Positions 41,449 to 59,421 of a stretch of DNA of 64,000 bases are shown in pieces. The first letter of the stretch is position 1; the number at the start of each line of letters is the position of its first letter. Both the position numbers and the translations under genes were made by a program. Source of the stretch: Candidatus Aquiluna sp. IMCC13023. GTDB taxonomy: Bacteria > Actinomycetota > Actinomycetes > Actinomycetales > Microbacteriaceae. The DNA is taken from NCBI RefSeq assembly GCF_000257665.1, contig NZ_AJKR01000003.1, positions 310,001 through 374,000 of the forward strand, given 5' to 3'. The notes under the pieces were generated by a model. That model was not told the origin of the DNA. It did no database searches and saw only the letters and a program-made list of their open reading frames with translations.

Positions 41449-42165
41449 TTGATTGAATTTAGAGACGTCTCAAAGACATATGGCCAGGACTTAGCCGTTG
41501 CTGACTTTTCGCTCACTGCGCCGAGCGGCAAAATTACCGTTCTCATGGGTCTTTCGGGTTCCGGTAAAACAACTCTTCTTCGCACCGTGAACAAGCTTGT
41601 GCAGCCGACCAGCGGATCTGTGCTAATCGACGGCAATGAGATCGCGGACCTGGATTCGGTGGTTCTCCGACGGTCCATTGGCTATGTCATGCAGGAGGTT
41701 GGGCTACTCCCCCACAAGAGCGTTTTAGACAACGTGACCCTGATCGCCAACATAGCCGGTCAAACCAAAGATGAAGCGCTAAGAAACGCCCTTGAGCTAC
41801 TTGAACTCGTCGGCATTGGTAGCAGTTTCCACGATCGTTTTCCAGGACAGCTGTCCGGCGGACAACAGCAGCGAGTTGGTGTCGCAAGAGCCCTTGCAAT
41901 CAGGCCGAACATTCTTCTTATGGATGAGCCGTTTGGAGCGGTAGATCCGATTGTCCGAGAGGAACTGCAAGACGAGTTGATTCGAATTCAACGCCAGCTT
42001 TCGCTCACCATTATTTTGGTTACTCACGACCGCTACGAAGCGATCAAGCTAGCTGATCAGCTGGTGGTTTTGAGCCAGGGCGCGAAGATCGAACAGGTCG
42101 GTACCCCAAAGGAGCTAACTGAAAAGCCAGCCAACAAGTTCGTGCAAAAACTACTTGGTCTGTAG
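41449..42165 (+). CDS. Osmoprotectant ABC transporter ATP-binding protein (OpuCA/ProV-like)
   Basis: ATPase of 238 residues with Walker A GLSGSGKT at 34-41, signature LSGGQQQRV and LLMDEPFGAVDP. It ends right after the ATPase domain and so lacks the C-terminal CBS pair that senses ionic strength in OpuA/OpuCA. TTG 41449 gives MIEFRDVSKTYG, the expected start. First transporter gene of a four-gene set with two permeases and a binding protein. Confidence 0.9.
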   Translation: MIEFRDVSKTYGQDLAVADFSLTAPSGKITVLMGLSGSGKTTLLRTVNKLVQPTSGSVLIDGNEIADLDSVVLRRSIGYVMQEVGLLPHKSVLDNVTLIANIAGQTKDEALRNALELLELVGIGSSFHDRFPGQLSGGQQQRVGVARALAIRPNILLMDEPFGAVDPIVREELQDELIRIQRQLSLTIILVTHDRYEAIKLADQLVVLSQGAKIEQVGTPKELTEKPANKFVQKLLGL

Positions 42166-42176
42166 CGGGGGCAATT

Positions 42177-42818
42177 ATGGAGTGGGCCGCTAAAAACTTT
42201 GACTTCGTGCTTCAACTCTCGGTAGCTCATTTACTGATTTCCCTTGTGCCACTTTTCTTGGGTTCAGTCTTTGCCTTTGCTTTAGTCAGGCTCACTCCAG
42301 CAAGGCTCGCAGGAACCATTGGCACCACTTTTAGTGCGATCTACGCAATTCCGTCGCTTGCAATCTTCGTGGCATTGCCCGCGGTAATCGGAACCAGCTA
42401 CCTAGGCCCGACCAACGTAGTAATCGCCCTGAGCGTTTATGTTGCAGCATCGATGTTCTTCTCCACCCGCGATGCGTTTGGCCAGGTGCCCAAACCAGCA
42501 GTTTTTATCGCCAGAGCTCAAGGGTTGAGCCCACTTCAGCTTTTTGTTCACGTGGAGCTACCCCTTGCTATCCCTGGTCTCATCGCAGGGCTGAGGGTAG
42601 CGGCGGCAAGCACTGTGTCCATGGCATCGATCGGGGCCATAGTCGGAGTTAGAAATCTGGGCTACTTATTTTTGGATGGCTTCCAACGAAAAATACCCGA
42701 GGAGATACTCACCGGGCTGTTTGCGATTTTTCTAATCGGCATTGCGATGGATATTGGGCTTATGGCTCTAGGTAGGGTCCTCACGCCATGGACCAGAAGA
42801 TCGGCCCAGCGTGTTTAG
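42177..42818 (+). CDS. Osmoprotectant ABC transporter permease (OpuCB/ProW-like)
   Basis: Permease of 213 residues with about five to six membrane segments; central YAIPSLAIFVALP and the coupling loop ARAQGLSPLQLFVHVELPLAIPGLIAG are typical of glycine-betaine/choline/carnitine systems. ATG 42177 with GGGG nearby. Its stop overlaps the second permease gene by 8 bases. Confidence 0.9.
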   Translation: MEWAAKNFDFVLQLSVAHLLISLVPLFLGSVFAFALVRLTPARLAGTIGTTFSAIYAIPSLAIFVALPAVIGTSYLGPTNVVIALSVYVAASMFFSTRDAFGQVPKPAVFIARAQGLSPLQLFVHVELPLAIPGLIAGLRVAAASTVSMASIGAIVGVRNLGYLFLDGFQRKIPEEILTGLFAIFLIGIAMDIGLMALGRVLTPWTRRSAQRV

Positions 42819-43476
42819 CATCGGTGAGCTCTTCGACTGGCTCACGGATCCTGAAAACTGGGCTGGCCGATACGGTCTTGCCAACTTATTTTTAGAACAT
42901 TTGACACTCACCCTTGTGTCCCTTGCAATTGCAGGACTTCTTGCGATTCCGATCGGCATAGCCATCGGCCAATCCGGACGCGGCGAGAGTCTGGTGATAG
43001 CGATATCGTCCGCCTCGAGGGCTATCCCCACGATGGGCCTGATGTTCGCGCTGGTGATGCTAATGGGTGTTGAATTTAGGCAGTTCGCTGTAGTTTTGGC
43101 GCTGGTGAGTATCGCGATTCCACCTGTTTTGGCAGGGGCTTATGCGGGCATTAAATCAGTACCAATAGCTATCCGTGAAGGCGCTCGAGCTCAAGGCATG
43201 ACCACGTGGCAGCAAATTAGGCATGTTGGCTTGCCACTTTCGGCACCCTCCATGGTTGGTGGCTTCAAGATTGCCTACCTTCAAGTAGTCTCCACTGTGG
43301 TGCTTGCGCCCCTTGTTGGACTTGGTGGCTTGGGCTTTGGAATCATTCAGGGTCTGGCGCTTCGAGATTTCGCTCAATTAACGGGAAGTGCTTTGGTCAT
43401 TGTGTTGTTGTCCATTACCGGAGAGAGGCTTTTAGCCAAGGTACAGAGTAAATTAGTGCGCCGGCTCATTCACTAA
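42811..43476 (+). CDS. Osmoprotectant ABC transporter permease (OpuCD-like)
   Basis: Permease of 221 residues with SRAIPTMGLMFALVML and the coupling loop ARAQGMTTWQQIRHVGLPLSAPSMVGG. GTG 42811 lies inside the end of the preceding permease gene. With OpuCB it forms the membrane channel. Confidence 0.9.
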   Translation: MFSIGELFDWLTDPENWAGRYGLANLFLEHLTLTLVSLAIAGLLAIPIGIAIGQSGRGESLVIAISSASRAIPTMGLMFALVMLMGVEFRQFAVVLALVSIAIPPVLAGAYAGIKSVPIAIREGARAQGMTTWQQIRHVGLPLSAPSMVGGFKIAYLQVVSTVVLAPLVGLGGLGFGIIQGLALRDFAQLTGSALVIVLLSITGERLLAKVQSKLVRRLIH

Positions 43477-43507
43477 TCAAATCGATAGACAACCAGAAGG
43501 AAATCCA

Positions 43508-44374
43508 ATGAAAAAATCCACTAAGAGTGCAATTGCTCTCAGCGCTGTTGCAGTACTGGGGCTTGCAGGCTGCGCTGATTCAAATAGCGAGCCGCTTGTA
43601 ATCGGCTCCCAGGCTTACTACTCAAACGAAATAGTTGCCGAGGTATACGCTCAGGTTCTAGAAGACGCCGGATACTCGGTTGACAGGCAGTTTGCCCTAG
43701 GACAGCGCGACGTTTATGTACCCGCGCTTTTGGCCGGCGAAGTAGATCTTTTCCCTGAGTACACCGGAAACTTGCTGCAGTACTTCGACCCCGAAGCCAC
43801 CGCAACCGCCGAAGAAGACGTTTACCAAGCCTTGCAGGCCGCATTACCAGCAGGCCTAACCGCACTTGCTCTCTCAGGAGCCTCCGATCAGGACTCGTAC
43901 AACGTCACAAGTGACTTTGCAATGAAGAACAACTTAACCTCTATTGCAGATCTTGCTGGAGTATCCGGAATACGTCTAGGTGGCGCCCCAGAGCTAGCTG
44001 AGAGACCATACGGACCAACTGGCCTCCTAAGCTCCTACGGCGTGACCGTGGAGTTTGAGGCCACTGGAGACACCACCGTTGAGTCACTGGTCGCAGGGCT
44101 GATTGACATGGCAAACGTCTATAGCGCTGACCCACGAATCCAGCAGCTTGGACTGGTCACATTGACAGACCCGCAGGGACTTTTCCTGTCGTCTAACCTT
44201 GTGCCGATTGCCTCGGATGCCGTGAATCAAGAAGCACGCGATCTAATCAGTGCCGTTTCATCGGCTATGACAGCAGCAGACCTAGTTGCCCTCAACGTTA
44301 GAAGCGTTGACGAGCAACTGTCATCGGCTGAAATTGCCAGGGACTGGTTGCTATCAGAAGGCCTTATTGACTAA
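43508..44374 (+). CDS. Osmoprotectant-binding lipoprotein (OpuCC/OsmF-like)
   Basis: Lipoprotein of 288 residues with signal peptide and lipobox GLAGC. The mature domain begins IGSQAYYSNEIVAEVYAQVLEDAGYSV and contains EVDLFPEYTGNLL, characteristic of OpuAC/YehZ binding proteins for betaine, choline or carnitine. AGAAGGAAAT precedes ATG 43508. Placing the binding protein last is the Opu/Yeh order. A strong terminator follows. Confidence 0.92.
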   Translation: MKKSTKSAIALSAVAVLGLAGCADSNSEPLVIGSQAYYSNEIVAEVYAQVLEDAGYSVDRQFALGQRDVYVPALLAGEVDLFPEYTGNLLQYFDPEATATAEEDVYQALQAALPAGLTALALSGASDQDSYNVTSDFAMKNNLTSIADLAGVSGIRLGGAPELAERPYGPTGLLSSYGVTVEFEATGDTTVESLVAGLIDMANVYSADPRIQQLGLVTLTDPQGLFLSSNLVPIASDAVNQEARDLISAVSSAMTAADLVALNVRSVDEQLSSAEIARDWLLSEGLID

Positions 44375-44679: not shown

Positions 44680-45720
44680 TTATTCTGGGATTATCGCCAC
44701 TTTGAGCGCTGATGGATGATCCATCATCTCTACAGCCTCTAAGTATTGATCGAGGTTAAACCGGTGAGTAACGAGCTTTGCAGTTTCAACTTGGTAAGTA
44801 TCTATGAGCCTTATAGCCTCTCGATAATCAGGTACCGTTGAGTTGGAACTGCCAACAACCGAAAGCTCCTTGTAGTGAATTAAATTTGAATCAATCTCTG
44901 CGTTTTGATTCACCGGAAAACCAGCAAACATACTCACCCTTCCCCTATTGGCTGCCAGCTGAAGAGCCTGATTTACCAGAGTGGGTACTCCTATACATAA
45001 AATTACAACTTGGGCCCCAGCCCCACCTGTCTCTTCTAGCACAATTGCGGATAGATCCTCTGTAGTCGGGTCGACAGCAATGTCTGCACCGAAATCTAAT
45101 GCGAGTCTTCTTCTAAACTCAAGAGGCTCACTCAGAATTACGGTCGCGGCACCCGATAGTTTCGCAAGCTTCGCATGCATCAGACCTATTGCTCCTCCAC
45201 CAATAACCAACACGGTGTCCGCGGATGTTATTTGCAAAAACTTTTGCCCGTGAATAATGCACGAAAGAGGTTCCGCTAAGGACACTGCAACAGGATCATG
45301 ATCGCCTTTATAGCTAACTAAAACCCCATCGGAAACGGCCTTCGCCGGAATGAGAATAAATTCGGCTAGGCCACCGTCTGTCTGGTGTCCTAGCACTAGG
45401 GCATTCTTGCAGAGATGAGAACGCTTCTCCGAACACTCCGCACATGTGCCGCAGGAATAAGTCGGACTCATTCCTACCTTGTCTCCTATTTCGTAGCCGA
45501 CAACATGGTCACCCATTTCAACAACTTCTCCAGCGACTTCATGGCCTAAAATCCTGGGAGCCACGACCCCTTTCCTCTTGATTCCAAGGGCGATTCGTAA
45601 ATCGGTACCACAAATAGTGTTGCTAGAAATTTTCAGCAACACCTCGCCAACGGCTGGTTTTGGCTTTTCCACTTCAGTGACCACTACGTCTCCAGGTCCC
45701 CTATAAACAATTGCCTTCAT
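44680..45720 (-). CDS. Zinc-dependent medium-chain polyol/alcohol dehydrogenase
   Basis: MDR-superfamily enzyme of 346 residues, like sorbitol/threonine dehydrogenases. Catalytic zinc ligands Cys37 and His60-Glu61, structural zinc cysteines 90, 93, 96 and 104, and the Rossmann motif VIGGGAIGLMHAKLA are present. It likely oxidises a polyol to a ketose (or the reverse) with NAD(P). Last gene of the sugar module; ATGA overlap with the SorC regulator gene. Confidence 0.88.
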   Translation of the reverse strand: MKAIVYRGPGDVVVTEVEKPKPAVGEVLLKISSNTICGTDLRIALGIKRKGVVAPRILGHEVAGEVVEMGDHVVGYEIGDKVGMSPTYSCGTCAECSEKRSHLCKNALVLGHQTDGGLAEFILIPAKAVSDGVLVSYKGDHDPVAVSLAEPLSCIIHGQKFLQITSADTVLVIGGGAIGLMHAKLAKLSGAATVILSEPLEFRRRLALDFGADIAVDPTTEDLSAIVLEETGGAGAQVVILCIGVPTLVNQALQLAANRGRVSMFAGFPVNQNAEIDSNLIHYKELSVVGSSNSTVPDYREAIRLIDTYQVETAKLVTHRFNLDQYLEAVEMMDHPSALKVAIIPE

Positions 45721-46718
45721 ATGGAACTCGTTCTTCCTTCGGTTGAGTGTGTTGTTGCTATGGATGATGAAATAAGGCTTCTGGCTGTTGAGCTGTCGGT
45801 AATCAAAATGTCTATGTATTCGCCGAGAGCTGCAGCTTGAATAATCTGAAGCTTGTCCTGTCCGAAAGCCACCGCAACAGTATTTTTTATATTTTTAATT
45901 CTTTGAGGCTTCAGCCCAATCACCCTGGAGGTGAACTTCGAGACAACCTCTCTACCCCTACTGTCGATCAAAATACCCGACACGTCACCGACTGCACCGA
46001 GCACCAACGCGTCAGAAACCTCGTCGGCTGTCAAGTATCCGGCGGCAACCAATGCAGATGAATTCAGGTTTATAGCGCCCAGGCCAACCAGAGCGCAATC
46101 AGCAGCCTCAGCCGCATCCAGCACCTTGGAAATAGCCGATTGTCGCAGTAACGACAGCGCCGAAGCCTCATCATCAACAACCAGAGGAGCGTTTAGAAGT
46201 TCATAAGTACCTTTTAGCTTTCTTGCAGCCATTTTTGTTAGCTCAACGCCATCGTTGGTCGAGTCACTCGTGCCCATGGAGCCGATCATCTGAATCACGT
46301 GAACTTGTTTTTCTGGATTTGTCTCTAAGTTTTCAACAACTAACTTCGTAGCGCTGCCCCAGCAGATTGCTAGGGAGCCAGTTTTAGTAACTTGCTGATC
46401 AATGCACTTGGCACCAAGTTCGCCGATAATCCTTCCTTCGTCTCTGGTTATAGCGCTCTCCAAATTCGAGACCCAAACCTCACGCAACTTCAAGATTTTT
46501 AATAGTTGTTTTTCTAACTGCGAATCCCGGGCCAGGGGGTGGTTTATCTTGAAGTCGACTATTCCGGAATCAATAGCCTCTTTCAACATCCGGCTCACAG
46601 TTGATCTCGAAGCGTGAATTCGAGACGCTATAAGTTTTTGGTCCATTCTCTGAATGAAGTGCATCTCGGCTACGCGAGCCAAGTCATTCGCCCTTCCACC
46701 GCTCGTTAGCTGAGGCAT
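45717..46718 (-). CDS. SorC-family sugar-responsive transcriptional regulator
   Basis: Regulator of 333 residues: N-terminal helix-turn-helix with DQKLIASRIHASRSTVSRMLKEA at about 30-52 and a C-terminal SorC sugar-phosphate-binding domain (IGSMGTSDSTNDGVELT). Members such as LsrR, EryD and SorC respond to phosphorylated sugars made by an adjacent kinase. Overlaps the FGGY kinase by TAATG and the dehydrogenase by ATGA. A palindrome upstream of the kinase gene (48330-48362) is its likely operator. Confidence 0.9.
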   Translation of the reverse strand: MPQLTSGGRANDLARVAEMHFIQRMDQKLIASRIHASRSTVSRMLKEAIDSGIVDFKINHPLARDSQLEKQLLKILKLREVWVSNLESAITRDEGRIIGELGAKCIDQQVTKTGSLAICWGSATKLVVENLETNPEKQVHVIQMIGSMGTSDSTNDGVELTKMAARKLKGTYELLNAPLVVDDEASALSLLRQSAISKVLDAAEAADCALVGLGAINLNSSALVAAGYLTADEVSDALVLGAVGDVSGILIDSRGREVVSKFTSRVIGLKPQRIKNIKNTVAVAFGQDKLQIIQAAALGEYIDILITDSSTARSLISSSIATTHSTEGRTSSI

Positions 46719-48262
46719 TAGGTATCTCGCTGCTTCGATTTCTGGGCCGCAGAGAGCTGGTGCATTATTGGCTTTAGTGCCTCATAAGATTTTTGGTATG
46801 CGAGAAAGAACTCCTCGTACCTCTGGTGCACTTCGCTATTAGGCAACACAACCCTGTCCCTGTGTACCATCGCATCCACGGCGTCATTTATGTCTTTGTA
46901 TAGCCCTGCTCCGACGGCACCAAGTATTGCCGGTCCCAAGCTCGCTGTCTCTGAAACCTTAGTGACTTCGACTGGAACATTCGAAATGTCCGCGTGGAGC
47001 TGAAGCCAAAGATCGCTATTTGTTGCCCCTCCGGCTGCAACAACTCGATCAATTTGGTGTCCCTGCTCTCGGAATCTGCGCATGGTATTTTCGCTACCGA
47101 AGCAGACCGACTCGATCATTGCTCGAAAGATGTGTTCCCTTCGGTGGCTCAACGAAAGGCCCAGTATCGCCCCGCGAGACAATGCGTCCACATAAGGAGT
47201 CCTGTTTCCCTGAAAATGATCCAGCACAATGAGCCCATCTGACCCTGGTGGAAGCTTTGAAGCAAGCGGAGACAAAGCTTCAAAAAAGTTGTCCTCAACC
47301 TCTTCCGACTGAACCAGGCGCCTAAACCAACCAATCATTGAACCGCTGGAAGTCTGTCCCCCTTCCACCGTGTACTGACCATCGATAACGGCCCCAGGAT
47401 AGCCACCCCAGGTTCCCTCCCCATGAACACGGTTCTTGGTTTGAAGCAGCAGGAGATGAGACGACCCAGTGATAAGCGCCATGGCTCCAGGCTCTACGAC
47501 GCCTAGCCCTATTTGAGCCACAAATGCATCAGCGCCTCCGGTCACAACAACTACGTTTTCATCTAAGCCGAGCTCATCCTGGACTCGTTTCGTGAGCTTG
47601 CCTATTGGCGTACCCATGGGCAGAACAACTTCGGGAAGCTTCTCTACCAAATCGGGCATACCGAGGGTTGCGTACAGCTCACGTGCCCAACCCCCGTTTT
47701 CCACGTCGTAATAGGCGCGAATAGCAGCATTATTTTGAGATGCCACTTTTTCCCCGGTTAGCCTCCAAGTTAGGTAGTCAGCGTATTCCGCCATCCACGT
47801 AGTCTTTGCGAAAATTTCCGGCTGATTACGAGAAAGCCACAGTGCTTTGGACGGAAGCCATTCTGCCGAGGCATGTACTCGACCGCTAAGAAGTAGTGCC
47901 GGAGAGCCGCTGTCTGCCACTATCCGGGCTTCCTCTTCCGCCCTAACGTCCATCCAGATGATTGCTGGTCGGAGTACGTTACCCGAATCATCGAGGCACA
48001 CAACGGTGCAGCTTGTGGCCCCAACGCAGATTGAGGCTATGTCACTCGACTCGGCGCCGATGTTACTCATTGCGCTCCGAATGCCCGACACTGCGGCCTT
48101 CCACCAATGCTCTGGGTTTTGCTCGGCCCAACCGGGCTGAACGAAATTAGTTTCGTAGGCGTTTCTCACGAAAACCAAGGGGTTTCCATCAAGATCAAAA
48201 ATGCCAACCCTGAGGCCCTCTGTGCCACCGTCTATGCCGATCATGTAGGGACCACTTTTCAT
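46718..48262 (-). CDS. FGGY-family carbohydrate kinase (ribulokinase-like)
   Basis: Sugar kinase of 514 residues. N-terminal phosphate loop IGIDGGTEGLRVGIFD, WMDVRAEEEA near residue 107, and the second-domain loop VAAGGATNSDLW. The block ATSCTVVCLD resembles the TCSLV-type motif reported for D-ribulokinases, but substrate remains open. ATG 48262 has GGGGAGGGAG four bases upstream, the strongest ribosome site in the module. It heads a sub-operon kinase-sorC-dehydrogenase, separated from the genes upstream by 138 bases. Confidence 0.9.
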   Translation of the reverse strand: MKSGPYMIGIDGGTEGLRVGIFDLDGNPLVFVRNAYETNFVQPGWAEQNPEHWWKAAVSGIRSAMSNIGAESSDIASICVGATSCTVVCLDDSGNVLRPAIIWMDVRAEEEARIVADSGSPALLLSGRVHASAEWLPSKALWLSRNQPEIFAKTTWMAEYADYLTWRLTGEKVASQNNAAIRAYYDVENGGWARELYATLGMPDLVEKLPEVVLPMGTPIGKLTKRVQDELGLDENVVVVTGGADAFVAQIGLGVVEPGAMALITGSSHLLLLQTKNRVHGEGTWGGYPGAVIDGQYTVEGGQTSSGSMIGWFRRLVQSEEVEDNFFEALSPLASKLPPGSDGLIVLDHFQGNRTPYVDALSRGAILGLSLSHRREHIFRAMIESVCFGSENTMRRFREQGHQIDRVVAAGGATNSDLWLQLHADISNVPVEVTKVSETASLGPAILGAVGAGLYKDINDAVDAMVHRDRVVLPNSEVHQRYEEFFLAYQKSYEALKPIMHQLSAAQKSKQRDT

Positions 48263-48400: not shown

Positions 48401-49492
48401 TTATTTCCTGAGATTTGAAAAATTAGCCAACGGAACCTTTAGCTCTCCGTTTGAAATTAGCTCCAAGTCGTCGGCGAAGAGAAAACACCCTTGCTCCCTA
48501 AGGTCCTTGACAATGTCCCAGTGCAGTGCGGATTCATTAACCCCAAGCGAGTCTGGGTATGCCCTACCTAGGGCTATGTGCACCGTGCCTAAAATTTTTT
48601 CGTCAAGAAGCAGGTCTCCGGTGAGGGTTTTCATGTTTGGGTTAGTGCCAATTCCAATTTCCCCTAGATGTCTCGAACCATCATCTGTCTCCAAAACTGC
48701 AGACACCAAATCAGCTCCTTCAGTTGCAGAAAAAGATACGACTTTGCCACCCTCGAAATACAGGATGAGGTCCCGAATCGCGACGCCCGAAAACCAGAAC
48801 ACTCCAGGAAATTTGATATGGCCATTGACGCTGGTTTCAATTGGGGCAGTTGCCACTTCCCCGTCTGGGAGATTCATCTCGCCGGCAAAAGACAGCCATC
48901 TTCTCCCCGCTACTCCCAAAACTAAATCCGAATCTCTGGAAAGAATTCTTATCTGACTGACCTCGGCAAGTCGGTCACACAGCGATAGCTGCAGGTCACC
49001 AACTTTTCCCCAATCGGCAATTGAACTGTCGAAAAACTCATGCAACAACTCCTCATGGTCCACGTTGATCATATTCGACCACTCGATTGCTGGAATACGG
49101 ACAATGCACCATCTAGTCTGTTGCCAGCGCTTGGTGGACACAATTCCCTTGCCTTTGCGCAGCAGAGCAATTTTGCGCTGATCGACATCGAAATCCGGAG
49201 TCACCATGCCCCTGAAGGAAACATGCACATCGGCCCACTCCATTGCTGCGACTTCTAGCCCAGCAGGGCTCCCAAGTGTCTCATCCGAGGCAAATTCTTG
49301 GGCGAATCGATCAAATCTTTCATCGGTCGCCATAACTTGTGGGTACGCTCCAACCTTGTAGCACTCAGCCACAAAAGCAGAAACAGCTTCCATGCATCGA
49401 AAATCGGTCATAAACATCGACACCTTGGTATTGGAAGTTATGTCAAGGCCGCGGATTAGCTGGTGGGCCAGCAAGCTCCAACGATTATCCAT
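48401..49492 (-). CDS. M29 family (aminopeptidase T/AmpS-like) metalloenzyme
   Basis: Soluble protein of 363 residues. The M29 metal ligands are all present at the expected spacing: Glu212 (PDGEV), Glu278 (GEIGIG), His305 (TVHIALG), Tyr312, His324 and Asp326 (LHWD). M29 proteins are dinuclear-metal aminopeptidases, and the same fold includes NicX-type 2,5-dihydroxypyridine dioxygenase, so peptidase activity cannot be assumed. The N-terminal domain is shorter than in AmpS (about 410 residues). Overlaps the FGGY kinase gene upstream by 8 bases, so it is part of the sugar operon. Confidence 0.85.
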   Translation of the reverse strand: MDNRWSLLAHQLIRGLDITSNTKVSMFMTDFRCMEAVSAFVAECYKVGAYPQVMATDERFDRFAQEFASDETLGSPAGLEVAAMEWADVHVSFRGMVTPDFDVDQRKIALLRKGKGIVSTKRWQQTRWCIVRIPAIEWSNMINVDHEELLHEFFDSSIADWGKVGDLQLSLCDRLAEVSQIRILSRDSDLVLGVAGRRWLSFAGEMNLPDGEVATAPIETSVNGHIKFPGVFWFSGVAIRDLILYFEGGKVVSFSATEGADLVSAVLETDDGSRHLGEIGIGTNPNMKTLTGDLLLDEKILGTVHIALGRAYPDSLGVNESALHWDIVKDLREQGCFLFADDLELISNGELKVPLANFSNLRK

Positions 49493-51005
49493 CTCGAGCC
49501 CTTAATGACCTCTTGGTTCCTAGGGCTCTTGTCGCTTCGTATAAAGCCTTGTAGTCCTCGTGGTCAAGTTGCAGCCTGGACTGCATGTCCCTGTTCACTC
49601 CAACCTGCGCTTCAGAACCTACCCAATTCAAAATTTCACTGCGGGATGTCAGATGGCCAACAGCGTATGCAGCAATGGCAGCGTCACCAAAAGCGGCGCC
49701 GACGCTACTAGCGACAGTCTGTGGTTTATCTAAGATCGCGGACACGGATTCGATTAATATCGTGTTTTTTGTTCCTCCCCCGATTGCCTTTATTCTCTCA
49801 GGCTCAATTCCATTAGTGGAATACGTTTCAAATGCGTACGACAAAGAATGGGCTATTCCCTCTATCGCAGCCCTAGCGATATCGGACCTTGTATGAGAGA
49901 GAGAAAGTCCAAAGAAGATCCCGCGGCTATTTGCGTCTTGAACTGGCGTGCGCTCGCCACTCAAATGAGCCTGGAAAATAACCCCATTAGCTCCAACTTT
50001 GGATTGCATAGCAAGGTCAATAAGTTCAGTGAATAATTTCTCATCCCCTTCAGAGCTGTCAATATCTAATAAATCGCAGATCCATCGGGTTACTGTTCCA
50101 GCTGTAGCCGTCCCGGCTGCAGCTACGAAGCTCTTTGGAAAGACAAAGGGAGCAGACCAAAGATCACTACTTGACTTTGGGGCATTCAGGACGTTAATCA
50201 TGTAGCCGGCAGAGCCGTACTGGATCATAGTGTCACCAGCCTCAACAACACCCGCACCAACTGCTTCGGCTGGCGAGTCTGTGGTGCCAACCGCCACCAC
50301 AGTACCCTCAGGGATGCCGGTGGCCAGAGCCGCGGCATGAGTAACGTAACCGGCTATTTCAGTGGCCCACGCAAGATTTGGAAGTTGCGCTGCAGAGACG
50401 AAGTCCTCGCAACCCGTAATGTCCCATTTCTGCTGCTTGAGATCATAAAGCGGGTGAAAATAACCGGCAGTCCCATGATCCATGGTTACTTCACCCGTGA
50501 GCTTCGCGACCAAAAAACTTTGACTGGTGACATACCATTCAGTCATGGCGGCAATTTCTGGTTCATTTTGAGCAACCCACATCACTTTGGGCCCCGCCGA
50601 CTGACTGCTTAATGAGTTACCTGATTTTGCAAATATCTCGTCGTCGCCAAATCTTTCTCTTAGCTCGGAAATCTGCTTACCAGCTCGAGCGTCAACTCCA
50701 TACAAAATGCCAGGCCTGAGGGGAGCTAGGTTTTTGTCAATTGGCAAAACGCAAGGTCCTATCGCGCTGCAAGCCATCGCCGCGATGGTGCTCGATTTGG
50801 CGACTTCGGTTTTCATTAGCCTTTTAGCAACAAAAACTAGATCAGCCCACCAAACTTCTTCTGCATCTTGCTCAACATAGTTTTCGCGAGGGGTCGAGAT
50901 AGAGTGCCTCTTCGAAGCGCTTGCCTGCACCACACCCTGCTCATCGACCAAAACACCTTTAGTCTCGAAGGTTCCGATGTCTATGCCTAGAAATAAATTC
51001 ACCAT
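49485..51005 (-). CDS. FGGY-family carbohydrate kinase (xylulokinase-like)
   Basis: Second FGGY kinase of the module, 506 residues and clearly different from the first. Phosphate loop LGIDIGTFETKGVLVD, YGVDARAGKQI near 104, GTTDSPAEAVGAG and the C-terminal loop KAIGGGTKNTI. Substrate unknown; the overall pattern is closest to xylulokinase-type members. It lies 7 bases after the BtpA-family gene and overlaps the M29 gene. Confidence 0.88.
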   Translation of the reverse strand: MVNLFLGIDIGTFETKGVLVDEQGVVQASASKRHSISTPRENYVEQDAEEVWWADLVFVAKRLMKTEVAKSSTIAAMACSAIGPCVLPIDKNLAPLRPGILYGVDARAGKQISELRERFGDDEIFAKSGNSLSSQSAGPKVMWVAQNEPEIAAMTEWYVTSQSFLVAKLTGEVTMDHGTAGYFHPLYDLKQQKWDITGCEDFVSAAQLPNLAWATEIAGYVTHAAALATGIPEGTVVAVGTTDSPAEAVGAGVVEAGDTMIQYGSAGYMINVLNAPKSSSDLWSAPFVFPKSFVAAAGTATAGTVTRWICDLLDIDSSEGDEKLFTELIDLAMQSKVGANGVIFQAHLSGERTPVQDANSRGIFFGLSLSHTRSDIARAAIEGIAHSLSYAFETYSTNGIEPERIKAIGGGTKNTILIESVSAILDKPQTVASSVGAAFGDAAIAAYAVGHLTSRSEILNWVGSEAQVGVNRDMQSRLQLDHEDYKALYEATRALGTKRSLRARDG

Positions 51006-51012
51006 GGGAGAC

Positions 51013-51825
51013 CTAAAAGCCAGACCGCATCTGACGAACCTCAGTCATTAGCTTTTCTACCCTCTTTGAATCTGTGGCGTTCTCGAAGATGCCATCGCGC
51101 TTGAAATACGTGCCGACTATTGCGGCGTCTGCGATGGAAAGTAACTCCACTACTGTTTTGTCAGTAACTCCGGTGTTTACGAAAACAGCAGTATTTCCCG
51201 CGTTCTCCTTCACTTTGGCCAAGACGCTGGAGTCGGTTGCAGCCCCTGCGGTTAGCCCGGACACACAGAGCCCGTCTGGTTGGCAATTGAAAACAGTTGA
51301 CTTAGTAATCTCTTCCACTGATCTTGACCCGACATAGCTGGCTGCTTCCGGAACGACATTGTAAAGAAGTTTCACGTTCTCCCCCGAGACCGCATTGCGG
51401 TGCCGAGCAACCTGACCAACATTGGTGTCCCACAAACCGAAATCTGATGCGTACACACCGGTGAAGATCTCCCGAACAAATGCTGCGCCAGTTGCAACAG
51501 CTAGATCAATAGAAGCGGTCGCGTCCCACAAAACATTTACACCATATGGAGTATTAATTTCACTCCGTAGTTCGCCGATTATTCGTGCCATAACAATCGC
51601 TGTAATTGGCTCGGTTTTTGTCAAGTAGGGAAGACTAAATTCATTGGAAATGAGAACACCGTCAACTCCACCTTCTTGAAGTGCTGCTAAATCCGCCTTC
51701 GCTAGCTCAATTATTTTGTCTAAGCCACCCTTCTTGTCGTAACCAGTGTCGCCCGGCATCGCCTGTAGGTGGCACATGCCGATGACCGGCTTCTGAACCC
51801 TGAATGTATCAACTAACCATGACAT
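51013..51825 (-). CDS. BtpA/SgcQ family TIM-barrel protein
   Basis: Protein of 270 residues matching the BtpA/SgcQ family: VIGMCHLQAMPGDTGYD at the N-terminus, GVDGVLISNEFSLPY, VNVLWDATASIDLAVATGAAFVRE and a phosphate-site-like VFVNTGVTD. BtpA was named from a cyanobacterial photosystem I assembly factor, but relatives such as E. coli SgcQ sit in sugar operons, and the fold suggests a sugar-phosphate lyase or isomerase. ATG 51825 has AGAAGGAG ten bases upstream. Located between the dehydrogenase and the second FGGY kinase. Confidence 0.87.
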   Translation of the reverse strand: MSWLVDTFRVQKPVIGMCHLQAMPGDTGYDKKGGLDKIIELAKADLAALQEGGVDGVLISNEFSLPYLTKTEPITAIVMARIIGELRSEINTPYGVNVLWDATASIDLAVATGAAFVREIFTGVYASDFGLWDTNVGQVARHRNAVSGENVKLLYNVVPEAASYVGSRSVEEITKSTVFNCQPDGLCVSGLTAGAATDSSVLAKVKENAGNTAVFVNTGVTDKTVVELLSIADAAIVGTYFKRDGIFENATDSKRVEKLMTEVRQMRSGF

Positions 51826-51881
51826 ATTCTTGAATCTCCTTCTGTTTTGCATCTAATGGGCCACGCGAGTGGGTTGCGCCA

Positions 51882-52760
51882 CTAACCCTTTAGGTCTACA
51901 CCGGCTTTCTTGGACAAGACTTTGATTAGCGCCGAAGCATTTTCCTCACCCCAACCCTCACCTACTGCTTGTGTGATTATTTCTAGTGTGGCCTCCGTCG
52001 CGGGAACGGGGGACTGCATGCGATCAGCAAATGCTTTTACAAGTTTCGCGTCTTTAAGCATCAGCCTCAATGCAAAGCTTGGCGAGTAATCGCCTCTAAT
52101 TACAGATGCCCCTACACCATCAAAAATTGGTGACCTAAAGTCGGTCACGTGTAAGACATCCAACACGTCGCTTAGGTCAAGGTTTGCCTTCTTGGCCAAA
52201 GTTAGCGCCTCTCCAAGAGCTTCAAGCTGGGCGGCCACAATTAGGTTGCCAACGAGCTTCATCTGAGCTCCGCTTCCGGATGCTCCCATGTAGTGAGCAG
52301 TTTCACTTATTGGCCCCAAAACCTCCTGAGCCTTATCAAATACTTCTTTATCTCCTCCCGCTACTATCCATAATCCGCCAGCGTTCGCCTCGCCTTTAGA
52401 TCCAAAGACAGGAGCATCCAAAAATCTAATTCCCTTAGTGGTGAAGCCAAGGGATTCCTTAGCGCTGGTAAGAGGATCAATTGTTGAAAGATTAATCACT
52501 ATTGTTGGAGAGGACGCCTCAGACAAGACGCCGCCGTTAGACAGGACAACGTCCTCAACGGCCTTGTCGTCAGCCAAGCAGTACATCACGTAATCAAAGC
52601 CCTTAACCGCTTCGCTGATTGATGACGCTCTTTTGGCTCCGAGGCTCTCGACGTCAAAAGCACTTCTGTTCCATGCAGTGACTTCGTGCCCTTTCTCCAC
52701 GAGATTTTTGACCATTCCCTGACCCATAGTTCCAAGCCCTAGAAAACCGATAGTTGACAA
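51882..52760 (-). CDS. Beta-hydroxyacid dehydrogenase (3-hydroxyisobutyrate dehydrogenase family)
   Basis: NAD(P)-dependent dehydrogenase of 292 residues: Rossmann motif GFLGLGTMGQGM at 5-16, substrate loop DAPVFGSKGEANAG and catalytic Lys168 in GAQMKLVGN. Relatives reduce tartronate or succinic semialdehyde or oxidise threonate and 3-hydroxyisobutyrate. TTG 52760 follows AAAGGAGG by five bases. Within the sugar operon it probably acts on a C3-C4 hydroxy acid or aldehyde (inference). Confidence 0.88.
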   Translation of the reverse strand: MSTIGFLGLGTMGQGMVKNLVEKGHEVTAWNRSAFDVESLGAKRASSISEAVKGFDYVMYCLADDKAVEDVVLSNGGVLSEASSPTIVINLSTIDPLTSAKESLGFTTKGIRFLDAPVFGSKGEANAGGLWIVAGGDKEVFDKAQEVLGPISETAHYMGASGSGAQMKLVGNLIVAAQLEALGEALTLAKKANLDLSDVLDVLHVTDFRSPIFDGVGASVIRGDYSPSFALRLMLKDAKLVKAFADRMQSPVPATEATLEIITQAVGEGWGEENASALIKVLSKKAGVDLKG

Positions 52761-52797: not shown

Positions 52798-53409
52798 CTA
52801 GTTAGCGGCTTTCCAGGATCTCAGTAGATACCAAAACGCGGTAGCGCCCGGATCCTGCAATCCAACACTTCGCTCCTGCAGCCAAGATGCTCTGCCTCGA
52901 CGAGACTGCAATGCCCTGGTGTCAACAACTGCTTTTTCTGCAGCAGCAATGCCCGCCTCTAAAGCAACCGCAGGGTCCGATTCGGCTGCCATCGCATTGG
53001 CGGCTGGAACGATAGCGTCAAGAATTGTCTTGTCTCCAACTTGGGAACGTCCACGTTTCGCAATTGATTCGCCTGCGGCCAGAGTAAAAGCGGCTGTGTC
53101 CGCAATAGTTATCTCACTCTTGCCCTCCCAGAGATTAGAGCCAGCCAGAAGAGCGCCGGCAACAAGTGCGGCCATTGTTGACGGGTTAGCATCAGCAAAG
53201 GACGTGGCACAGGCTTGAGCGATGTCAACCGGACTCGCATTCTCTGGAAGTGACGCTAGGGAAGAAGTAATTGCGTCGGCTCCAAGAGAAATAGTTACCC
53301 CCAGGTCCCCATCTCCCAGCGCAGCGTCTAAATCACGAAACTCGTCAGCGTAATTCTTTAGGTCGGCGAGTGTATTTCGAATAGCTTGATTCATCTCTAT
53401 ACCGTTCAT
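52798..53409 (-). CDS. dhaL: DhaL-type dihydroxyacetone kinase, ATP-binding subunit
   Basis: Nucleotide-binding subunit of 203 residues. The three Mg-binding aspartates Asp28, Asp33 and Asp35 (LDAALGDGD) and the lid motif GRASWLQERSVGLQDPGATA are intact. The usual GGASG loop is replaced by a PSTMAALVAG stretch, which is unusual. No PTS subunit DhaM is seen, so ATP is the probable phosphate donor with DhaL acting directly. Seven bases downstream of dhaK. Confidence 0.9.
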   Translation of the reverse strand: MNGIEMNQAIRNTLADLKNYADEFRDLDAALGDGDLGVTISLGADAITSSLASLPENASPVDIAQACATSFADANPSTMAALVAGALLAGSNLWEGKSEITIADTAAFTLAAGESIAKRGRSQVGDKTILDAIVPAANAMAAESDPAVALEAGIAAAEKAVVDTRALQSRRGRASWLQERSVGLQDPGATAFWYLLRSWKAAN

Positions 53410-53416
53410 TATTTAT

Positions 53417-54418
53417 CTAACCTTCTTTGAAAAATGGTGACTCAGCGGGCGCGTTCAGAAGCTCTAAGCGAGCGGCATTTAATTTCAAGAGAGAGAGAGA
53501 CGCCCCTGCCATTTCAAGGCTGGTGGCATATTCACCGACGTAAGATTTACCAATCGCAATTCCCTTACCGGCTAAGAGTTTGTTTACTTGGCGATACATG
53601 ACGTAAAGCTCTTCGAGTGGAGTGGACCCCATCCCATTTACTAGAACGGCAACACTATCTCCCGAGACAATAGACAGATCGGCAACGATTGGATCAAGCA
53701 GTCTGGCAACAATCTCATCCGCTGTTTCCAGTTCCCCTCTGTGGATTCCGGGCTCTCCGTGGATTCCAATTCCAACTTCCATTTCACCTTCCGGAAGCTC
53801 GAAACTGGCCTTACCCGTGGTTGGGAAGATCGTGGGAGAAAGACCTATGCCCATAGTTCCCGTGTTTTCGACAACGTCCTGAGCAGCAGCAGCTACCTCG
53901 TCAAGCGAATCTCCCCGCTGTGCAGCGGCACCCGCAGCCTTAAACGCGAAGAAGATACCGGCAACACCACGACGGTCCGCTGCTCTTTCTCTTGGCTGGC
54001 TGGCAACGTCATCACAACCGAGGACCGTTCTGGTTTCGATGTTTTCAACCTCAGCCATCTCGGCCGCAAGATCAAAATTAAGTACATCCCCTCCGTAGTT
54101 TCCGTAAAGGTAAAGCACACCCACTCCCCCAGAAACTGCCCTCGTTGCCTCCAAACACTGCTTTGACGAAGGAGACGAAAAGACGTTTCCAATTGCAACT
54201 CCGGAGGCTAGGCCTTTCCCAACGTAACCCTTGAATAAAGGTAGGTGACCTGAGCCACCTCCAGTGACAATTCCAACCTTGCCTTGCTCTGGCGAATCCG
54301 CCCGGACAAGCACCCGTTTGTCGGCCGAAGCCAAGCGGACCATACCCGGATGAGCAAGAATCAATCCCTCAATCATTTCATCGACGAAGTTATCGGGGTT
54401 GTTTATTATTTTCCTCAT
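53417..54418 (-). CDS. dhaK: DhaK-type dihydroxyacetone kinase, substrate-binding subunit
   Basis: Subunit of 333 residues that binds the ketose covalently. His58 (GGGSGH), Asp111 (NYGGDVLNF) and the hemiaminal-forming His220 (GIHGEPGI) are conserved. The pocket rim differs from E. coli DhaK: GHLPLFKGYVGKG replaces GHEPMHCGYIGQG. With an RbsC-type importer beside it, the substrate may be a larger ketose such as erythrulose rather than dihydroxyacetone; this is inference from the variant pocket and the context. ATG 54418 lies two bases after the permease stop. Confidence 0.9.
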   Translation of the reverse strand: MRKIINNPDNFVDEMIEGLILAHPGMVRLASADKRVLVRADSPEQGKVGIVTGGGSGHLPLFKGYVGKGLASGVAIGNVFSSPSSKQCLEATRAVSGGVGVLYLYGNYGGDVLNFDLAAEMAEVENIETRTVLGCDDVASQPRERAADRRGVAGIFFAFKAAGAAAQRGDSLDEVAAAAQDVVENTGTMGIGLSPTIFPTTGKASFELPEGEMEVGIGIHGEPGIHRGELETADEIVARLLDPIVADLSIVSGDSVAVLVNGMGSTPLEELYVMYRQVNKLLAGKGIAIGKSYVGEYATSLEMAGASLSLLKLNAARLELLNAPAESPFFKEG

Positions 54419-54420
54419 GT

Positions 54421-55512
54421 TTATTTCCTTGCTTTCTTTTTGAACCAGTTGGCTTTGTTTAGGCCCTTATTCAGTTTTCGCTTCGTCGAGGCCTGATCCA
54501 AGATCATGACCAGGATCAGAATGGCCCCCTGCGCTATTGAATATTCGTAGGCCGATAAGCGGATTGCATTAAATCCACTCGCAACCGTTTGCAGAGTCAG
54601 GGTTGCAAGAACGACCCCGGTCACGGTTGCAAAACCACCTGCAGGGTTTGTGCCACCCAGAACTGCTATGACGATTACCAACAATACGTAGGAGCTTCCG
54701 TAGTCTGCACTCGAGGTTGGGTTTCTAGCGAGGAACAAAACACCCGCACAGCCTCCAAGTAAACCAGTCAGCATGTAAGTGCTCATTAGTACTTGTCTCG
54801 AGTTAATCCCCGAGTACCTGGCGGCTACGGGGTTGGTACCCAAAAGCTGCGTTTTTCTTCCCAGAGAGGTTTTGTTTAGAAAAATGGCTACAAGTCCTGC
54901 GATTACAAGTAGTGCTATGAAAGTCGTTGGCATTCCAAGAACACCAGCCTTGCCCACTGCGGCTAATTCTTCGGGAGCTCCATACAGGGTTTTTCCTCCG
55001 GTCCAGACAATGGCCAAACCATTGAAAATTTGCATGGAGCCAAGCGTTGCCAGAATGGGTGCTATTCCAACGTAGCTAATCAAGAAACCGTTAAATAAAC
55101 CTCCGGCAAGGCCGACAACTAATCCAAGTAAAACTATGAATGGCATCATTTGAGCAGCCCTCGCAGGATCGCTAGCCATTAGCGACGAATAGAGGGTGGT
55201 TATTGTTATTGCAGAGAGATTAGCCACTGCAACGGTGGACAGATCTATGCCCCCCGTAAGCATGGCTACCATCATTGCTACCGCAATTACTCCAATTTCC
55301 GGAGATGCAATCATAATGTTCTGGAGGTTTACCGGATTGAGGAAGATATCTGGCTGCAGATAAGTAAAAAGGGCAAATGACCCAATCAAAATTAGAAGCA
55401 TCCTGCTAGTTCCCCGGTCGCCTCTAGCTCTCACAATAAAATCTCGAGTTATCGTGTCCAAGCGATTGTTTGCCGATACAAGAGAAGGCCTTGTGCTGCT
55501 TTTGCTATTCAA
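54421..55512 (-). CDS. Sugar ABC transporter permease, RbsC/LsrD type
   Basis: Permease of 363 residues with about nine to ten segments and the BPD_transp_2 pattern: MLTGGIDLSTVAVANLSA, GLFNGFLISYVGIAPILATLGSM and VLGGTNPAGGFATVTG. TTG 55512 lies four bases after the stop of the other permease gene. Basic C-terminal tail. Two distinct permeases, as in Lsr-type importers, imply a heterodimer. Confidence 0.92.
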   Translation of the reverse strand: MNSKSSTRPSLVSANNRLDTITRDFIVRARGDRGTSRMLLILIGSFALFTYLQPDIFLNPVNLQNIMIASPEIGVIAVAMMVAMLTGGIDLSTVAVANLSAITITTLYSSLMASDPARAAQMMPFIVLLGLVVGLAGGLFNGFLISYVGIAPILATLGSMQIFNGLAIVWTGGKTLYGAPEELAAVGKAGVLGMPTTFIALLVIAGLVAIFLNKTSLGRKTQLLGTNPVAARYSGINSRQVLMSTYMLTGLLGGCAGVLFLARNPTSSADYGSSYVLLVIVIAVLGGTNPAGGFATVTGVVLATLTLQTVASGFNAIRLSAYEYSIAQGAILILVMILDQASTKRKLNKGLNKANWFKKKARK

Positions 55513-55515
55513 TTT

Positions 55516-56562
55516 TTATGCCCCCAACTGTGCTGTTACGAAGGATCTCTTGGTTTTTCTCTTTGCAGAAAGAGCTTGAATACCGACACCAACAATCAGT
55601 AAAACCCCCACAGCTGCTCGCTGCCAAGCTGTTGGAACTCCGGCCAAGAGAAGGCTGTTGTTGATTACTTGAATCAGTAAAACCCCCAGCACTGTGCCAA
55701 GCACAGAACCCCGTCCACCGAACACCGAAGCTCCACCCAGCACGACAGCCGCGATGACATCCAACTCGTTGCCAACGAGGTCCTGGGGATTAGCGTTTCT
55801 TCCAAGAGTCACATGAAAGACTCCGGCCACCGCGGCCAGCACACCAACCAAGATGTAAACCATCATTTGAATGCGAACCACGGGAAAGCCGGCCCTCCTA
55901 GCAGCCTCGTCATCGCCTCCTATCGCAAAGATGGCGCGTCCAAACATCGTTCGCTTCAGCATCCAGGCGACCAAAATCGTGAGAATGATTACCGGAACCA
56001 CCAACACGTGCAAGAACGCCCCGCGTTCTTGCTCGTTCACAATTGAAATGATGTTAGTTTTAGCTACCTCATCAAGGGACATTGGTGGGTTGGCTATGTA
56101 CTTAGAGCCCACATAAGCTATCAATACGCCCCGAAAAAGACCTTGTGTTCCCAGGGTCACAATTAGGGTAGGCAATCTGAAATTTGCTATGACGGCGCCA
56201 TTGACAAGACCTAGCAGGGCACCAAAACAAGCAGCCATTAGGGTGATGACGATTAATCCCGGATCAAAATTTCCATCTTGAGCAATTTTGACTGCGGTGT
56301 ACGCAGAGAAGATTGCAATTGCCGCGAAGGAAACGTCAATTCCGCCGGAGATGATCACAATCAGAACACCGAGTGCGAATATAAGCGGAACAATAGATCC
56401 GCGCATTATTGAAAACATGGTTGTCAACGAAAAGAACACCGGATTGAGGATGCTAATTGCAACTACTATGACGACTAGGACAAGTGCAAGCACTCCCTCA
56501 TTATTAGAACCCCGCAGTCCGGCTAGCATTTCTAGAGGTCTCCGAGTCGCAAAAATACTCAT
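55516..56562 (-). CDS. Sugar ABC transporter permease, RbsC/LsrC type
   Basis: Permease of 348 residues, about nine segments, with IISGGIDVSFAAIAIFSAY, GAVIANFRLPTLIVTLGT and VVLGGASVFGGRGSVLGT. ATG 56562 overlaps the ATPase stop (ATGA). Works with the adjacent permease and the RbsA-like ATPase. Confidence 0.92.
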   Translation of the reverse strand: MSIFATRRPLEMLAGLRGSNNEGVLALVLVVIVVAISILNPVFFSLTTMFSIMRGSIVPLIFALGVLIVIISGGIDVSFAAIAIFSAYTAVKIAQDGNFDPGLIVITLMAACFGALLGLVNGAVIANFRLPTLIVTLGTQGLFRGVLIAYVGSKYIANPPMSLDEVAKTNIISIVNEQERGAFLHVLVVPVIILTILVAWMLKRTMFGRAIFAIGGDDEAARRAGFPVVRIQMMVYILVGVLAAVAGVFHVTLGRNANPQDLVGNELDVIAAVVLGGASVFGGRGSVLGTVLGVLLIQVINNSLLLAGVPTAWQRAAVGVLLIVGVGIQALSAKRKTKRSFVTAQLGA

Positions 56563-58064
56563 GCTGTCGTCATTTCTTGAATGTTGGTTGCTGTAATTTG
56601 TGATCCAGTCAGAGTGTCAACAATCTCGCCCTGGCGAACAACCAAGACGCGGTTGCAAACAGAAACCAACTCGAGGGAGTCATCGGAAATTACGATAACC
56701 CCCCTTCCTAGATTTGCCTCGTTCCGAAGAATTTCGAGTATTTGTTCTTTTGACCCTATGTCTACTCCCACAGTTGGACCGTTGAGAATCAAAACCTTGG
56801 GTTGGTTGGCCAGAAGTTTTCCTAGCACTACTCGTTGAGCGTTTCCCCCTGAAAGAGATCTCACCGGAGCCGAAACGCTTTTCGCCTTAATCTTCAACCG
56901 GTCAAACATTGACTGAGTGGTCTTGGAGATACCCTCTCCGTCCAATAGACCGAAAGCACTCCTGTGTTTGTCGAGTGATCCCGCGATGATGTTGTCCCCG
57001 ACAGATTTGTCCAGAAAAAGCCCCTGAGTTAGACGATCCTCAGGTAAGTACCCAATCCCCGCCTTGATGGCGTCGCGAATAGTACGAACTCGTATGGCCT
57101 GTCCGTCAATTTCAATTGTTCCGGATTCAGCTGGCCTCACCCCAAACAGAGCTTCTGCAATTTCAGTTCTTCCAGAACCGAGTAGCCCGGTAATTCCCAA
57201 AATTTCACCACTATGAAGAGTGAAGCTAACATCATTAAATGCGCCAGAGGAGCACAGGTGCGACACCTCCATTAACGGTTTTGCTGTCATGACCGGAGAA
57301 GTTATTTCCCTGGCCTCACTAACGTCGCGCCCGGTTATGTATTGAGTCAGGGATTTTCTGTCGAACTCGCTAGCTATACCTGAAATAATGTGCTTTCCGT
57401 TTCGTAGGATCGTTACATCTTGCGAAACTTGGAGTGACTCTTCGAGCTTGTGGCTTACAAAAACTAGCGCTACCCCTCTCTCCCTAAGCTTCCGCACCAC
57501 ATCGAAGAGATAGTCAACTTCGGTGTGAGTAAGGGCAGTAGTGGGTTCGTCCATCACAATAACTCTTGCATCATTTATCAAGGCCCTGCAAATGGCTGTT
57601 AATTGCTTATCTGCCACAGATAGAGCTTCAACTTTTGCACTAAGGTCCAGTGTCAATCCGAGCTCTTTGATAATCGTCGCGGCGGCGATTTTCGCCTTAC
57701 TCGCTGAAAATAGTTTTGCCCTAATCGCCACTTGAGAGGTGATCGTAATGTTTTCCGCAACAGACAGATTTGGGAATAGGGAGAAGTCTTGGTAAATAAC
57801 TTGGATGCCGGCCATTATCGATGAAAATGGGGATAGCTTTTCCTGAAGTTTTCCATCAATGTAAATGGACCCAGAATCTGGTTGCTCAACACCGCTGATT
57901 ATTTTAATCAGAGTAGATTTACCACACCCGTTTTCACCGGCTAGGCAGTGCACGTTTCCAGCCGTAAGTGCCATTGAGACCTCATCTAAGGCCTTCACCC
58001 CGCCGTAGGTCTTGACGATGTTCTTTACCTCTAGCACTGGTAAAGCTCTATATGCTTTGGCCAT
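56559..58064 (-). CDS. Sugar ABC transporter ATP-binding protein, RbsA-like (tandem domains)
   Basis: Two-domain ATPase of 501 residues. The first domain has Walker A GENGCGKS (43-50) and an intact VIVMDEPT, with a degenerate signature LSVADKQL. The second has GLLGSGRTE, signature LSGGNAQRV and a Walker B reading LILNGPTVGVD, where the usual Asp-Glu pair is Asn-Gly. The second site may therefore bind but not hydrolyse ATP. Preceded by a hairpin terminator that follows the binding-protein gene. Confidence 0.92.
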   Translation of the reverse strand: MAKAYRALPVLEVKNIVKTYGGVKALDEVSMALTAGNVHCLAGENGCGKSTLIKIISGVEQPDSGSIYIDGKLQEKLSPFSSIMAGIQVIYQDFSLFPNLSVAENITITSQVAIRAKLFSASKAKIAAATIIKELGLTLDLSAKVEALSVADKQLTAICRALINDARVIVMDEPTTALTHTEVDYLFDVVRKLRERGVALVFVSHKLEESLQVSQDVTILRNGKHIISGIASEFDRKSLTQYITGRDVSEAREITSPVMTAKPLMEVSHLCSSGAFNDVSFTLHSGEILGITGLLGSGRTEIAEALFGVRPAESGTIEIDGQAIRVRTIRDAIKAGIGYLPEDRLTQGLFLDKSVGDNIIAGSLDKHRSAFGLLDGEGISKTTQSMFDRLKIKAKSVSAPVRSLSGGNAQRVVLGKLLANQPKVLILNGPTVGVDIGSKEQILEILRNEANLGRGVIVISDDSLELVSVCNRVLVVRQGEIVDTLTGSQITATNIQEMTTA

Positions 58065-58164: not shown

Positions 58165-59205
58165 TTAGAACTTGTACTCCGAAGCATTGGTTTTGTCTAC
58201 GATGACCGCAGCCTCACCAACCCAGACGTTGTCAAATCCAGCTAGCTTCTGTAGAGAGTTGTAACCCTCGATACCTAGGTCGGTTCCCTCGGAAAGAGAT
58301 CCTCCATCAGCCAGAATCTGAGCAATCTTTAACTGAGCTTTCCCGGCAAGTGCTGGGTCCCAGAAGAAGATCTTGTCGATTGAGCCGTCATCCAGGTACT
58401 TAGATGCGACAGATGGAATAGAGGTTCCCATTACGCAAACGGAGTCCTGAAGTCCAGCCTCCTGAACCGCGCGACCGATACCGGCGACGTCAGTTCCAGC
58501 TGAACCCTGGAAACCCTTGATGTCTGGATACTTAGCTAGAAGCTCCTTGGCTCGCTCGTAAGCAACAGTCTCGTCTTCCTTGCTCTCTACTGGGTCTTCA
58601 ACACGAACTAGATTTGGGAAGTTTGCCTGCTGCTCTGCATAGGCACCTTCAACCCAAGTCATGTGCGTCTTTGCAGTTAGTCCACCGACGAAGGAGACAT
58701 ACTGGCCTTCGTTACCCATGCACTTTGCAAGGTTAATCATGATTTGCTCGCCGTACCATGTGTTGTCGAACGCTTCAATGTCTGCGTCGACATTGACCAT
58801 ACCGGCCGCTTCATGGGAAACAACGATGACTCCAGCTGCGCGGGCCTGCTTCAGAATGTCCTCTAGAGCCTCCGGCGAATTTGGAACGACTGCAATTGCG
58901 GTCGGATTCTGAGCGAGAAGGTTCTGGATAATCGAAAGCTGCTTTTCAGGGCTAGCGTCGTCTCCTCCTTCTTGACGAGCATCGATGCCGGTTTCGGCAG
59001 CGAACTCGACAACGCCTTCCTCCATGCGGTCAAACCAACCAATTCCGGTCAGCTTTACAACTACAACCATGGACTGTGCTGTTGTTGGTGCTGAGCCAGC
59101 GGAATCTTCGACTGCAACTGGATCTGCTGTGGTGGTACAACCGGCCATGACCAAGACTGATGCGCTCGCGACGGCTGCAGTAAGTAGATGCTTCTTCAAA
59201 TTCAT
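58165..59205 (-). CDS. Sugar ABC transporter substrate-binding lipoprotein (RbsB/LsrB-like)
   Basis: Periplasmic-binding-protein type I lipoprotein of 346 residues with lipobox VMAGC (Cys23). The mature part contains VVVKLTGIGWFDRMEEGVVEFAAETGID and SFVGGLTAKTHMTWVEGAY, resembling the rhamnose/autoinducer-2 branch of the family. Ligand unknown. ATG 59205 has GGGAG upstream. First gene of the operon and divergent from the DeoR regulator. Confidence 0.92.
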   Translation of the reverse strand: MNLKKHLLTAAVASASVLVMAGCTTTADPVAVEDSAGSAPTTAQSMVVVVKLTGIGWFDRMEEGVVEFAAETGIDARQEGGDDASPEKQLSIIQNLLAQNPTAIAVVPNSPEALEDILKQARAAGVIVVSHEAAGMVNVDADIEAFDNTWYGEQIMINLAKCMGNEGQYVSFVGGLTAKTHMTWVEGAYAEQQANFPNLVRVEDPVESKEDETVAYERAKELLAKYPDIKGFQGSAGTDVAGIGRAVQEAGLQDSVCVMGTSIPSVASKYLDDGSIDKIFFWDPALAGKAQLKIAQILADGGSLSEGTDLGIEGYNSLQKLAGFDNVWVGEAAVIVDKTNASEYKF

Positions 59206-59341: not shown

Positions 59342-59421
59342 ATTGTGAGCAAACCGTTACATAAATTCTGCTATCTTGTGGAATAACCGTAGTTTTGACA
59401 TCAATTTCAAGGAGAACGACT

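Follow-up and report, generated by a model that had tools for sequence, protein, structure and literature searches.

An M29-fold protein encoded in a conserved BtpA and FGGY kinase cassette, with a predicted role as a metal hydrolase in sugar catabolism

Introduction

Why should a protein with the metal site of an aminopeptidase be encoded within a carbohydrate operon? The question is raised by a gene of Candidatus Aquiluna sp. IMCC13023, located in a 64,000-nucleotide stretch of contig NZ_AJKR01000003.1 (positions 310,001 to 374,000) that we call the window. The original prediction for this DNA noted an M29 metal site in a sugar-kinase operon and proposed a sugar-derived substrate. Genome annotation calls proteins of this kind aminopeptidases; the conserved cassette that we describe points to a sugar pathway instead.

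Results

The M29 open reading frame occupies positions 48401-49492 on the minus strand, exactly as predicted, and encodes 363 amino acids from an ATG start. It is the sole M29 gene found in the 1.36-Mb genome (99% complete). The anticipated overlap with an FGGY kinase gene (49485-51005) amounts to 8 bp at the end of that gene and takes in the M29 start codon. The two genes close a minus-strand operon that opens with the importer's sugar-binding lipoprotein (58165-59205) and continues with a sugar ABC double ATPase (56559-58064) and two sugar permeases (permease 1, 55516-56562; permease 2, 54421-55512), all assigned by inspection and conserved position. Profile matches identified the following genes as a DhaK-like (Dak1) kinase subunit (53417-54418) and a DhaL-like (Dak2) subunit (52798-53409), both accessory and the latter found chiefly in actinobacterial loci, and a 3-hydroxyisobutyrate/tartronate-semialdehyde/threonate dehydrogenase-like (HIBADH-like) oxidoreductase (51882-52760), an accessory gene present in some relatives. 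Between this oxidoreductase and the FGGY gene lies a TIM barrel of the BtpA/SgcQ family (51013-51852; profile and model). BtpA and the FGGY kinase, the latter xylulokinase-like by profile and below the XylB cut-off, are the conserved partners. A divergent DeoR-family regulator (59395-60174, plus strand), assigned by inspection and conserved position, keeps its position in several relatives. No peptide importer was seen near the M29 gene, in line with the original prediction.

Profile matches place a second FGGY kinase (46718-48262) 138 bp downstream of the M29 gene, followed by a SorC-type sugar-binding regulator resembling LsrR and Bacillus DeoR (45717-46718) and a zinc alcohol/polyol dehydrogenase (44680-45720), all on the minus strand. 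We considered these three genes as part of the module and dropped them, as the relatives' loci do not retain them alongside the cassette; together (46718-44680) they resemble a second module, for a sugar or polyol. Relatives of the second FGGY kinase and of the HIBADH-like gene also adjoin the cassette in two loci of Spirochaetes (L052 and L073). Past the operon end, the plus strand encodes an ABC importer (41449-44374) that by inspection resembles the glycine betaine/choline (OpuC-type) kind. Scans for promoters and terminators gave no matches above chance, and a scan for viral contigs gave none. An attempt to infer the substrate from FGGY equivalog models was abandoned, with all scores below the cut-offs.

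The protein matches the Peptidase family M29 profile (PF02073) with an E-value of 5.5e-43 and 147.7 bits, against a cut-off of 27, so the match is not due to chance. All six predicted ligands, Glu212, Glu278, His305, Tyr312, His324 and Asp326, were found. Five of them are invariant in the alignment of 77 members of the protein's clade (defined below) and likewise in 29 M29 proteins outside it, and Tyr312 is a tyrosine in 97% of the clade members. The predicted near-identity of ligand spacing holds for most pairs and fails for Tyr312 to His324, which are 12 residues apart in comparison with about 26 in canonical AmpS. The segment, some 14 residues shorter than that of AmpS, is common to other short-type M29 proteins. 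DEKI and HWD motifs were rejected as cassette-specific signatures: solitary short M29 proteins have them, and the motifs served as the search seed. The M29-fold protein carries an intact dinuclear-type metal ligand set.

A structure model built from 76 homologues (mean pLDDT 96.7) matched PepS (4ics) with Z 38.0 over 347 residues and an rmsd of 2.4, then AmpS (Z 37.4) and AmpT (32.2), followed by NicX (7cn3; 26.8) and crocagin proteins (about 11); fold neighbors were also sought with Foldseek. These neighbors bear on two alternative readings. The protein may be a true aminopeptidase, either acting on a glycosylated or aminoacylated sugar to free its amino acid, or simply recycling peptides while cotranscribed with the sugar genes. 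The solved M29 enzymes closest in fold are aminopeptidases, from which the ligand set alone cannot tell it apart, and all six ligands are kept. There is also a precedent: M42 proteins first annotated as cellulases turned out to be aminopeptidases (PMC3511314).

Alternatively, the protein might be a mononuclear iron dioxygenase like NicX, as hinted in the original prediction, or another nonhydrolytic enzyme of the M29 fold. NicX is the first fold match after the peptidases, and the shared fold stands; the chemistry does not. The iron of NicX is bound by His265, Ser302, His318 and Asp320 (PMC7910607), a His-Ser-His-Asp site that the M29 protein does not reproduce: with residue equivalence taken from spacing and not from a residue-level structural alignment, both glutamates and the three His/Asp ligands are invariant in 77 of 77 clade members. 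Since the full E/E/H/Y/H/D set is kept, the site is of the hydrolase type. Furthermore, the host lineages include Bellilinea and Leptolinea, which are anaerobes. A dioxygenase or other nonhydrolytic function is, in our judgment, highly improbable.

To place the gene in a wider context, we used an M29 sequence motif, without regard to gene neighborhood, to search about 85,000 species genomes and found 357 relatives, of which 80 loci were retained. Close relatives are sparse within the order, present in 4 of 396 genomes drawn from it, the window's own included. The window operon mapped onto the relatives' loci, where BtpA, FGGY and M29 genes co-occur and are mostly adjacent. A codirectional FGGY gene lies within 8 kb in 75 of 83 clade loci, BtpA in 60 and both in 57; these counts come from related genomes, and the loci are not independent. 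In nine further loci, BtpA lies on the opposite strand, and several of the loci lacking partners are short contigs. Among 29 M29 loci outside the clade, FGGY was found once and BtpA never. A locus drawn by BtpA alone (L130) had the same cassette.

All three genes occur together in Actinomycetota, Chloroflexota, Atribacterota, Desulfobacterota, Spirochaetota and Deinococcota. Their order varies (M29-FGGY-BtpA, BtpA-FGGY-M29 and BtpA-M29-FGGY), and the associated importers are CUT2-like ABC systems or, in many Chloroflexota, CUT1-like. The cassette-linked M29 proteins form one tree branch with support 0.97. Seven residues (W86, R94, G116, S119, R132, R310 and K329) are constant, or almost constant, within the clade and uncommon in other M29 proteins; conservation in the C-terminal part (297-303 and 323-330) is partly inflated by the search motif. 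This set would suit a substrate unlike that of other M29 proteins, perhaps an anionic one, since several of the seven are basic. From gene content, then, a cassette spread over at least six phyla appears to import and break down a sugar, and the M29 protein appears to belong to it. Because this context is conserved across phyla, the protein probably acts on a sugar-derived metabolite, the substrate class originally proposed.

The same data weigh against the aminopeptidase reading. The cassette contains no peptide importer, the tie to FGGY and BtpA over six phyla is closer than a housekeeping role in peptide recycling would explain, and the clade-specific residues are absent from solitary short M29 proteins. 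We therefore think a true aminopeptidase unlikely and retain the catabolic hydrolase as the preferred reading.

Other neighbors of M29 genes were also noted. On Deinococcus plasmids (L111 and L137), a short M29 protein that has the HWD motif lies in another conserved row, with ketopantoate reductase-like, Gfo/Idh, DUF885, RraA and SDR proteins and oligopeptide-type ABC permeases. In L083 and L087, an apparent IF-2B/MtnA-like gene is found beside M29; a gene of this type (aldose-1-phosphate isomerase type) is next to BtpA in L102 (8727-10491).

The original prediction had pointed to the Escherichia coli sgc operon, where the aminopeptidase-like SgcX stands beside a BtpA homolog. The parallel proved stronger than claimed. 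SgcQ of both E. coli and Salmonella shares 57% identity with the BtpA of the window, and IQ-TREE joined SgcQ, rhizobial BtpAs and the bulk of the M29-linked BtpAs in a single clade with support 100/100. In sgc operons, which also encode PTS components and an RPE-family protein, the unrelated M42 protein SgcX fills the hydrolase position; the M42 protein was confirmed in a Salmonella sgc locus. The M29 protein and SgcX probably do the same job. Phyllobacterium and Sinorhizobium plasmids carry BtpAs 58-60% identical to that of the window, in a row that lacks a kinase and includes a PIG-L de-N-acetylase, an alpha/beta hydrolase, a xylose-isomerase-like barrel and a Gfo/Idh oxidoreductase; we infer that the PIG-L protein and the alpha/beta hydrolase may occupy the same slot as M29. 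BtpAs of 30-46% identity, whose partners are either PfkB kinases or FGGY together with SDR, fall outside the 100/100 clade, and three M29-clade loci (L068, L070 and L087) have a BtpA of this other kind, outside the main clade. A displacement of M29 by M42 within the BtpA tree was considered and dropped: FastTree nested the groups, but the AU test in IQ-TREE did not reject a separate M29 group (p 0.215 for sgc and PIG-L BtpAs outside the M29-linked group).

The BtpA model matches TIM barrels with phosphate ligands. A BtpA profile compared with the PDB gave weak matches to TrpA, GGGPS and OMPDC, and a PDB sequence search with BtpA alone gave just chance matches to myoglobin. Elsewhere, BtpA genes often adjoin FGGY or PfkB kinases. 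What the loci most often have in common is a kinase or PTS next to BtpA; combined with the phosphosugar-barrel fold, this suggests a phosphorylated substrate for BtpA.

More distant BtpA loci contain hydrolases of other families. A metallophosphoesterase-like protein lies between BtpA and a second FGGY type in four of them (L093 and L124 by profile, L125 and L126 by inspection), and an alpha/beta hydrolase lies near BtpA in L115. An actinobacterial locus (L099, 4777-10387) combines BtpA with a PfkB kinase, an ABC sugar importer and a PTE-family hydrolase of the phosphotriesterase/lactonase type. In a Chloroflexota locus (L113, 5190-10793), a BtpA of 32% identity accompanies a PfkB kinase, a GARS-like phosphoribosylglycinamide synthetase paralog, an M42 protein and a CUT2-like transporter with an apparent BMP-type binding protein, another combination of BtpA, aminopeptidase-like protein and amide ligase.

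Discussion

Taken at the level of gene context and residue conservation, our analyses favor, if by no wide measure of confidence, the M29 gene encoding a dedicated dinuclear-metal catabolic hydrolase of a conserved sugar module, outside general peptide degradation. The bond cleaved would be an amide or lactone in a sugar intermediate that is probably phosphorylated. In the pathway that we envisage, the importer would bring in a monosaccharide derivative and the FGGY kinase would phosphorylate it, a step that the PTS would perform in sgc. On the M29 protein, a metal-activated water would attack the amide or lactone carbonyl of the intermediate, either before or after phosphorylation by FGGY. 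BtpA would next rearrange or cleave the phosphosugar, and DhaK/DhaL and the dehydrogenase would process the products.

An amide is weakly favored over a lactone, because the counterpart PIG-L and M42 families cut amides; the induction of sgc on nitrogen-containing carbon sources (PMC13343008) would fit the same choice. The analogy with the ula pathway favors a lactone, as does the OMP decarboxylase/HUMPS-family barrel that adjoins the M29 gene in four loci (L008, L030, L034 and L039). A narrower form of the preferred reading would make the protein a UlaG-like phosphosugar lactonase, opening a lactone formed from the kinase product ahead of a phosphate-binding TIM barrel. Besides those four loci, it draws on the PTE-family hydrolase at one distant BtpA locus, as the PTE family includes phosphosugar lactonases, and on dehydrogenases able to make lactones, which are common in the cassettes. 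However, we know of no M29 lactonase, PIG-L and M42 are amide hydrolases, and the type of dehydrogenase differs among the loci. This narrower version seems to us rather doubtful; the broader reading of a catabolic hydrolase, with either bond, is the one that we retain.

More tentatively, and with somewhat less than even confidence, BtpA, FGGY and M29 may form the core of an undescribed and widespread catabolic pathway in which the M29 fold serves as a phosphosugar amide or lactone hydrolase, with sgc as its PTS/M42 version. In the literature searched, we found no papers on BtpA with FGGY, M29 or aminopeptidases or on the function of the cassette. The substrate of sgc was unknown as of 2026, and growth of its mutants was unimpaired on 190 carbon sources (PMC13343008). 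The conserved cassette links this orphan operon to a kinase and an importer that many culturable bacteria encode together, which opens a route to the substrate through knockouts and screens of the binding protein. If the reading is true, it would add one more nonpeptidase function to the M29 fold and give a first indication of what this branch of the BtpA family catalyzes.

Among known systems, AmpS, PepS and AmpT share with the window protein the M29 fold (Z 32-38) and the six metal ligands. They are about 50 residues longer, have the longer Tyr-to-His segment, lack W86, R94, S119, R132, R310 and K329 of the clade and lie outside sugar-kinase cassettes. The solitary short M29 proteins, such as those of Listeria, Anoxybacillus and the Deinococcus plasmids, have the same DEKI..GT.H and HWD-type motifs and short Tyr-to-His segment but belong to other tree branches and have no BtpA or FGGY neighbors. 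The 2,5-dihydroxypyridine dioxygenase NicX has the M29-like fold overall, whereas its mononuclear iron site with a serine ligand and its chemistry are unlike those of the window protein. The ascorbate ula pathway, with the lactonase UlaG and the barrel UlaD, may offer a working analogy of a phosphosugar, a metal hydrolase and a phosphate-binding TIM barrel, although its hydrolase fold differs from M29. The sgc operon of E. coli and Salmonella (SgcX, B, C, Q, A, E and R) has in common with the cassette a BtpA of the same clade, a metal hydrolase that resembles aminopeptidases, the uptake and phosphorylation of a sugar and a DeoR-family regulator. It differs in using a PTS where the window cassette has an ABC importer and an FGGY kinase, in having the M42 protein SgcX in the role of the M29 protein, and in encoding, alone of the two, the ribulose-phosphate-epimerase-like SgcE.
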